From positions 1-60,884 of the forward strand of contig JANYDE010000070.1 of the NCBI GenBank assembly GCA_025359915.1: a stretch of DNA of 60,884 nucleotides, in the 5' to 3' direction. A model generated the notes under the pieces. That model did no database searches, was not told where the DNA came from, and worked only from the letters and a program-made list of their open reading frames with translations. The position numbers and the translations under genes are program-made. Source of the stretch: Chamaesiphon sp. 336R_metabinner_41 (GTDB lineage: Bacteria; Cyanobacteriota; Cyanobacteriia; Cyanobacteriales; Chamaesiphonaceae). Below are positions 24,173 to 42,797 of the stretch, piece after piece (the first letter of the stretch is position 1; every line of letters starts with the position of its first letter).

Positions 24173-24730
24173 ATGCTAACTACTCCACTACCAAAAAGAT
24201 TGTCCAGTATTGACGAAGATAGTGATACCATCCGCACGATCGTATTTTCACTTGCCGACATCGAGCAAACATCGATGTCTCAATACCTCTTTGCTCTACC
24301 TGTAGAAGCCGTCGAAAAAGCAATAATTTATCCCGCCGTTCGCGGAGCGTCTCTGAAAGAGAATCGAGCCGTGCTCAAAGATGGCATTGGGATAATTAAT
24401 ATTGGTTCACAAACTCTGACAATTGTAGATTTACGTCAGAAATTTGCCACCATCGATCCGCAACAAGATTCGTCGAAATTCCTGATCTTATTTCATACCC
24501 AATCTGGCGAACTCTGTGGAATGCCGATTAAGGATGCTCCAGCATTGCTCGATATTTCTCCCGCGACGATTCGATCGATCCCACTCGCTTATCGAGAAGT
24601 AAATCAGCTCAATTTTGTCTCTCAGATGGCAATTGTTCCCCAAGAAAATGGTCTAGAATCACTACAAATTCTCCTATTGGGATTAAATCAATCATCTGCA
24701 CAATCGAGAATTGCAAGTAATCTAAATTAG
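24173..24730 (+). CDS. Second CheW-like protein
   Basis: A 185-residue CheW-like domain: YLFALPVEAVEKAIIYPAV, GIINIGSQTLTIVDLRQKF, KFLILFHTQSGELCGMPI. It lies 77 bases after the cheA-type gene and is probably the last gene of the operon. Inside the domain, at 24334-24362, the DNA matches a dispersed cyanobacterial repeat that is also present in non-coding DNA at 42772-42797. The repeat encodes the AVRGASLKEN segment, apparently an in-frame insertion in the loop between two strands. The frame is kept, so the protein may still work. Confidence 0.85.
   Translation: MLTTPLPKRLSSIDEDSDTIRTIVFSLADIEQTSMSQYLFALPVEAVEKAIIYPAVRGASLKENRAVLKDGIGIINIGSQTLTIVDLRQKFATIDPQQDSSKFLILFHTQSGELCGMPIKDAPALLDISPATIRSIPLAYREVNQLNFVSQMAIVPQENGLESLQILLLGLNQSSAQSRIASNLN
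24334..24362. repeat. Dispersed GAGACGCTCCGCGAACGG-type repeat inside a CheW gene
   Basis: The reverse complement of this stretch shares TTCTCTT, then GAGACGCTCCGCGAACGGC with 42772-42797, differing only by a small indel between the two blocks. Here it is translated (AVRGASLKE); there it is intergenic. Confidence 0.75.
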
Positions 24731-36220: not shown

Positions 36221-36961
36221 TTATTTGGTGACGAGGACAAAACCTCGTGTTTTACCAGCATCGGTATCGATTGTTTTAATTGCTTGCCATAAATCTACCG
36301 CTTTAACCCACACTGGGGGATATTTGTAGCGAGAAACATCTAAAATTAGAAAGCGATCGGTAAGTTGATGGTAAGCAGCAATGGGTGAAATATGCCCACC
36401 GCGCTCTTGTCCGATAGTTTTTCGCAAGTAATTAACGATCGCAAAATTGTCACGTTCGGATAGATTTTGACGCAGAAGAGATCGAAATCGATCGAGATCT
36501 AGATCCGCACCATAGTAAACATTGACTTTTGCGCCATGACTGGTTAATAAGCCGCCTAACTGAGCTAATGTCATGCCCCGTTTGGCAATTAAATCGGCTG
36601 AAATTACTTTTTTAGTCTCCTCTCGATTCTTGTTCCAAGAGGCTACGCCAACGAAGAAATTCTCTTGGGTAAATACCCGAAAAGGTTTAGTCTGTGGCGA
36701 TTCTGGTGCAGGTATTTCCAATGCATTTAATACCATCACACTACTAGCCACACCACAATAAGCTTGATTAATTTGGGTGACAAATTGATTGCTCAATCGG
36801 AAATAATCTTGTCTGGCTTGACTATCAATTAGCAGTTGTTCGCCTTCACTAGAATTAAAGGGAATCAATTGTGGCGATGCTGGTAGTGTTTGAGCGAGTA
36901 TTTGATGATTATTTAAGATGAGAGTAAATAATCCTAAGCTCCAGAATATTTGATATTTCAT
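36221..36961 (-). CDS. Phytochelatin synthase-like cysteine peptidase, exported
   Basis: A 246-residue papain-fold protein of the short prokaryotic phytochelatin synthase class (like Nostoc Alr0975). The triad is visible: Cys69 in NQAYCGVASSVMVLNAL, His190 in GGHISPIAAYH, Asp208 in LILDVSRYKYPPVW. The N-terminus (IFWSLGLFTLILNNHQILAQ) reads as a signal peptide, so it probably acts in the periplasm. Short forms mainly cleave Gly from glutathione and lack the Cys-rich C-terminal domain of plant enzymes. It lies between gatD and murT. Confidence 0.9.
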   Translation of the reverse strand: MKYQIFWSLGLFTLILNNHQILAQTLPASPQLIPFNSSEGEQLLIDSQARQDYFRLSNQFVTQINQAYCGVASSVMVLNALEIPAPESPQTKPFRVFTQENFFVGVASWNKNREETKKVISADLIAKRGMTLAQLGGLLTSHGAKVNVYYGADLDLDRFRSLLRQNLSERDNFAIVNYLRKTIGQERGGHISPIAAYHQLTDRFLILDVSRYKYPPVWVKAVDLWQAIKTIDTDAGKTRGFVLVTK

Positions 36962-42771: not shown

Positions 42772-42797
42772 TTCTCTTCGAGACGCTCCGCGAACGG
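42772..42797. repeat. Dispersed GAGACGCTCCGCGAACGG repeat
   Basis: Contains the palindrome-rich word GAGACGCTCCGCGAACGGC, widespread in cyanobacterial intergenic DNA, here between the small exported-protein gene and the OmpA-type gene. The same word is inside the second CheW gene at 24334-24362. Confidence 0.75.

Follow-up and report, generated by a model that had tools for sequence, protein, structure and literature searches.

A 24-nt, apparently mobile repeat translated as eight extra residues of a CheW protein, with sister copies in unbroken genes of relatives

The window, by which we mean the whole stretch of 60,884 nt that was analysed, contains a CheW-domain gene and a phytochelatin-synthase gene, each with a 24-nt element in its reading frame, together with an intergenic sister copy (Table 1). 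CheW homologues are present in ten of the 11 genomes of the family, counting in the source genome, and nine of them were compared: seven from the same genus at 70–82% identity and two from another genus. In the protein alignment all nine are eight residues shorter, exactly at the element, and the stretch AVRGASLKEN corresponds to only two residues (TD, SD, NE, AD or SE within the genus; KN or PN in the other genus). Because the DNA alignment sets the window (CCG-24 nt-ATCGAGC) against an intact CGATCG target (CCGATCGAGC) in the close relative L038, the insert can be placed at 24339–24362, in CG^ATCG, with a target that was not duplicated. The alignments thus show a clean insertion of 24 nt between the CG and the ATCG of a CGATCG (HIP1-core) site in the CheW gene. 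The target is CCGATCGA-like and falls short of the full HIP1 octamer. In the window, TCGATCGA occurs 58 times versus ten times for GCGATCGC, and a passage of PMC4390886 names TCGATCGA as the dominant 8-mer of C. minutus; the assignment to a Chamaesiphon-like genus is based on this excess.

Table 1. Coordinates of the two carrier genes, the element copies and their parts in the window
Feature	Position	Strand	Basis
CheW-domain gene, 185 aa, PF01584, carrier of the insertion	24173..24730	+	ORF; Pfam CheW E=1.1e-6, residues 39–158
CG, left half of the split CGATCG target	24337..24338	+	CCGATCGAGC at the same position in L038
Inserted 24-nt element TTCGCGGAGCGTCTCTGAAAGAGA, eight additional residues within AVRGASLKEN	24339..24362	+	9/9 homologues 8 aa shorter; DNA alignment; same class elsewhere
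Hairpin 1, CGC-GGA-GCG, GNA-type loop	24341..24349	+	Outer-pair covariation; DNA fold
Hairpin 2, TCTCT-GAA-AGAGA	24350..24362	+	Covariation at all five pairs; DNA fold
ATCG, right half of the split CGATCG target, without target-site duplication	24363..24366	+	DNA alignment with L038
Phytochelatin-synthase gene, PF05023, carrier of the second in-frame copy	36221..36961	-	PF05023
Second 24-nt element TTGGCGTAGCCTCTTGGAACAAGA in CG^ATCG, eight extra residues	36628..36651	-	24-nt gap in three relatives; gap versus 2btw
22-nt sister copy TTCGCGGAGCGTCTCGAAGAGA, intergenic, without CG/ATCG flanks	42773..42794	-	Word match in window

The original prediction, that a small repeat had inserted into this CheW gene, agrees with these comparisons, in which homologues of equal length were sought and all nine proved to be eight residues shorter; the unit that it delimited, the nine residues AVRGASLKE, gives way to an insert of 24 nt with a net gain of eight. 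Its further statement that the gene had not been broken also holds, since the open reading frame is intact and dN/dS between the window gene and seven relatives is 0.07–0.14 (0.05–0.22 for other pairs). By these measures the CheW gene that carries the element is intact and evolves under purifying selection. As to the loop position proposed at the outset, solved structures searched by profile with the CheW protein included no relative, and a single-sequence structure model reached a mean pLDDT of only 30.7. An alternative origin for the 24 nt would be an ancestral CheW loop that other lineages have since lost. A precise loss could in principle happen at any single gene; here, however, the eight residues are absent from all nine homologues, two of another genus among them, and like units are present in one genome and absent in relatives across unrelated genes. 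The ancestral loop was rejected on the 9/9 homologues and is very improbable.

The element in the phytochelatin-synthase gene, which was no part of the original observation, is unlike the CheW copy in sequence and has the same plan, TTGGCGTAGCC-TCTTGGAACAAGA. Exactly 24 nt are missing from this gene in three relatives (G001, G002 and G004; 82–83% identical), where the empty site reads CGATCG in G001 and G002 and TGATCG in G004; the homologue in G003, at 50% identity, shows larger differences. The solved Nostoc phytochelatin synthase 2btw also has a gap at the element position. The observation from which the analysis started was a word shared between the CheW gene and intergenic DNA. The word, GAGACGCTCCGCGAACGG, is indeed matched exactly at 24336–24353 (minus strand) and 42780–42797 (plus strand), although it covers only hairpin 1 and its edges. 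The intergenic copy can be kept as a sister of the CheW element, with the differences that it is 22 nt long, has another second hairpin and lacks the CG and ATCG flanks.

A chance match or a compositional bias as the source of these similarities is exceedingly improbable. GAGACGCTCCGCGAACGG has just two exact matches in the window, and two matches at up to three mismatches were obtained in 0/100 dinucleotide shuffles. It occurs exactly four times in the 4.23-Mb genome, in which its 16-nt core has 123 matches at up to two mismatches versus 0 for a backwards control; a structural pattern embedded in the site matches 1,156 times across nine genomes of the genus versus 26 for the backwards control. 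These counts rule out a chance match, in favour of which nothing was found. The looser structural pattern behind the 1,156 matches also captures a distinct class of 22-nt copies that sits at CGATCG sites. From two genomes of the genus, a strict pattern retrieved 75 distinct copies; the flanks are exactly CG and ATCG in 16/28 copies of 24 nt, 1/2 of 23 nt, 0/15 of 22 nt and 0/27 of 25 nt; by these flank counts, the subfamily of the strict pattern at CGATCG is chiefly 24 nt long. Its sister lengths sit away from CGATCG, often at the tips of larger hairpins. Across the phylum, a strict pattern was found in eight of the 292 genomes sampled.

In a search of named genomes with the GCGATCGC context (full HIP1) built into the pattern, the exact pattern matched 111 stretches in public genomes, with at least 118 distinct element copies; among the 80 matches listed, all are cyanobacterial save one labelled Gracilibacteria. 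That contig (L248, Candidatus Gracilibacteria) holds a cyanobacterial element in full HIP1 and is probably misbinned. The same pattern located the element in Nostoc punctiforme NIES-2108 (locus L235). Related stretches are present in 19 records of annotated plasmids; in the one record examined, the match runs over the final codons of a transporter gene. The element of L009 (G000:C114:12486-12534), which sits at a CGATCG-type site, carries further copies nested in the hairpin-2 loop, apparently three deep, and G000:C62:18606-18685 holds five head-to-tail copies of a related 16-mer, AGAGGCTCCGCCAACG.

The repeat unit consists of two adjacent small hairpins kept by compensatory changes. The covariation set comprised 142 copies from the genus, collected with hairpin 2 left free in the pattern. 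All five pairs of hairpin 2 show compensatory change; the fifth is Watson–Crick in 120/142 copies versus a shuffled maximum of 72 and takes all four pair types. The outer pair of hairpin 1 is paired in 140/142 (shuffled maximum 91), again with compensatory change, and the hairpin-1 loop has A as its last base in 141/142 copies and is of GNA type in 121/142. GNA loops on GC stems are described as unusually stable DNA mini-hairpins in a section of PMC4686876. In the same set of copies, the hairpin-2 loop is GNA in 50/54 with a closing pair T-A, A-T or G-C and in only 2/66 with C-G. The DNA fold of the CheW copy has z=-0.87, with 36/200 shuffles equally stable, and the DNA folds of the copies are not unusual versus shuffles.

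The element may move as single-stranded DNA that folds into a pair of mini-hairpins, and a trans-acting enzyme, such as one of the HUH/IS200-IS605 type, would join the folded form into a CG^ATCG site that has been cut; taken jointly, we hold these two steps at about even odds. The main alternative to a DNA route is movement through an RNA copy of the family, with reverse transcription at HIP1 sites that have been cut, a route that the authors of the SDR work reportedly proposed. The two-hairpin fold is the minimum in four of the five RNA strands folded, and the compensatory changes suit RNA as well as DNA. The CheW copy, however, lacks the two hairpins as RNA (they are present in three other tested copies), and a GNA loop with a free middle base follows a rule established for mini-hairpins of DNA. 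Neither the RNA nor the DNA fold energies discriminate, and we consider the RNA route possible, on the improbable side of even.

Insertions of the same kind are seen in other genes. For 15 further coding junctions, relatives were sought within the genus, and ten proved to have one that lacks the element, nine of these with a clean 24-nt gap; at L131 the relative is of equal length without the element, at L054 the comparison gave no clear reading, and at L046, L047, L064 and L068 no junction-spanning relative was found in the genus. A RelA/SpoT site (L136) is empty in G002 and holds diverged 24-nt copies in G004 and G006; other relatives differ. At L349 and L361, from the RelA/SpoT site, hairpin 1 has changed from CGC/GCG to GGC/GCC, which could reflect an old insertion held in common, a replacement or recurrent hits. 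One genus subfamily of 44 copies comprises 37 of 24 nt, four of 23 nt and three of 25 nt; a Pfam scan of the ORFs covering 33 of the 44 assigned a family in 20 ORFs, with the element within the matched domain in 11. Some insertions are common to different species, for example at nine Nostoc and Brasilonema loci. At one of these nine, L201, the insertion lies between glycosidase-like and RmlD-like domains. A RecD-like gene is filled at L308 (G000:C119) and ∼89% identical without the element at L318 (G000:C13) of the same assembly, either a paralogue or contamination. A further copy lies in a pPIWI_RE-type gene of a cyanobacterial MAG (L183:2869-6132).

As 24 nt is 3 × 8, an insertion of this length keeps the reading frame. 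In the frame test, the element was removed and the flanks were joined, and a copy was scored as coding if it lay in a run of at least 200 aa with 50 aa on each side; 189 distinct copies from retrieved loci among the 1,156 genus matches were used, those with less than 600 nt of flank being dropped. The coding share is 45/115 for copies of 24 nt, 8/74 for other lengths and 839/1916 for empty CGATCG sites (24 nt versus other lengths, p=1.4e-5; 24 nt versus empty, p=0.34; others versus empty, p=2.2e-9). The other lengths divide into 2/34 for 22 nt, 4/12 for 23 nt, which show no visible depletion from genes, and 2/28 for 25 nt. At three other thresholds, the comparison of 24 nt with other lengths gave p=5e-5, 5e-4 and, at the strictest, 0.057; an earlier, smaller test (118 versus 34 copies) gave p=0.08. 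Within one subfamily the shares are 40/97 for 24 nt, 2/28 for 25 nt (p=5e-4) and 3/8 for 23 nt. In the named genomes, 47/81 copies lie in long frames versus 353/614 empty HIP1 sites. Copies of 24 nt persist in genes at the frequency of empty sites, and few of those with 22 or 25 nt are found there.

The 45 coding copies are spread over all six frames (17, 11, 9, 4, 3 and 1), and none has an in-frame stop, where random placement would predict 8.2 (P=1.2e-4). Frame use is uneven, and coding copies and empty sites differ in codon phase (p=0.001), which stops explain only in part. The element seems to land without regard to genes, frameshifting copies then being removed by selection. A different view would be that the element is under positive selection, its peptide or hairpin being useful to the gene. 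This could account for the insertions common to species, L201 between its two domains included, and for the diverged 24-nt copies in two relatives at one RelA/SpoT site. Against it, by either of the counts above, 24-nt copies are no more frequent in genes than empty sites are, and the genes and frames hit are diverse; we consider such a selected use improbable. The preferred reading, that an insertion, a dispersed family landing at CGATCG and a frame filter jointly explain the sequence comparisons, has in our estimate a probability of roughly 0.88.

Elhai and coworkers reportedly described SDR5 in 2008 as a small dispersed repeat of Nostoc punctiforme. SDR5 has paired stems with compensatory changes and a size of 21–27 nt. 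It is placed precisely between HIP1 nucleotides 3 and 4, according to a passage of PMC4390886. The element described here takes the same position within the CGATCG core in the CheW gene, the phytochelatin-synthase gene and the nine further clean-gap sites; its 24 nt fall in the SDR5 size range, it has a conserved secondary structure with compensatory changes, and it also occurs in N. punctiforme, in the strain named above. It differs in being found in what is probably a Chamaesiphon-like genus and at CGATCG cores, full HIP1 not being required. As length, site and structure, the features compared, all fit, we infer that the element is of SDR5 type, passively spread and not retained for protein function.

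Palindromic elements of Rickettsia, with which the insertion had been compared at the outset, are about 100–150 bp long and are not known to be tied to HIP1 sites. They are short repeats inserted in frame in many unrelated genes, as stated in part of PMC3733652. In-frame insertion into protein genes is the likeness; the present element, at 24 nt with two hairpins, differs and lies outside the Rickettsia length range. The parallel is an analogy only, the closest kin by length, site and structure being the cyanobacterial SDR5. The same source, in the part concerned, describes REP elements as short hairpin DNA possibly moved in trans by RAYT transposases and reports intragenic REPs (PMC3733652). 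The present element is likewise short hairpin DNA, possibly mobilized in trans and found inside genes, and differs in its CGATCG site specificity and its frame-keeping length. In the literature searched, no paper on in-frame SDR insertions in proteins was recognised, which is no proof of absence.

The sequence comparisons point to a 24-nt mobile repeat that is translated as eight extra residues and has sister copies in genes of relatives without breaking them. More tentatively, and with the odds somewhat against it, the 24-nt single-stranded DNA hairpin could be a protein-tolerated parasite that rains on CGATCG without regard to genes and is translated in six frames, largely free of stops, so that eight-residue insertions across cyanobacteria would be filtered only by frame and stops. 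The paired filled and empty sites in genes come from a mobile element that ranks among the smallest described, and they provide a natural experiment on which eight-residue insertions proteins tolerate. How such tiny elements move becomes directly testable, given the precise junction at CG^ATCG without duplication, the two-hairpin rule and the insertions listed here.
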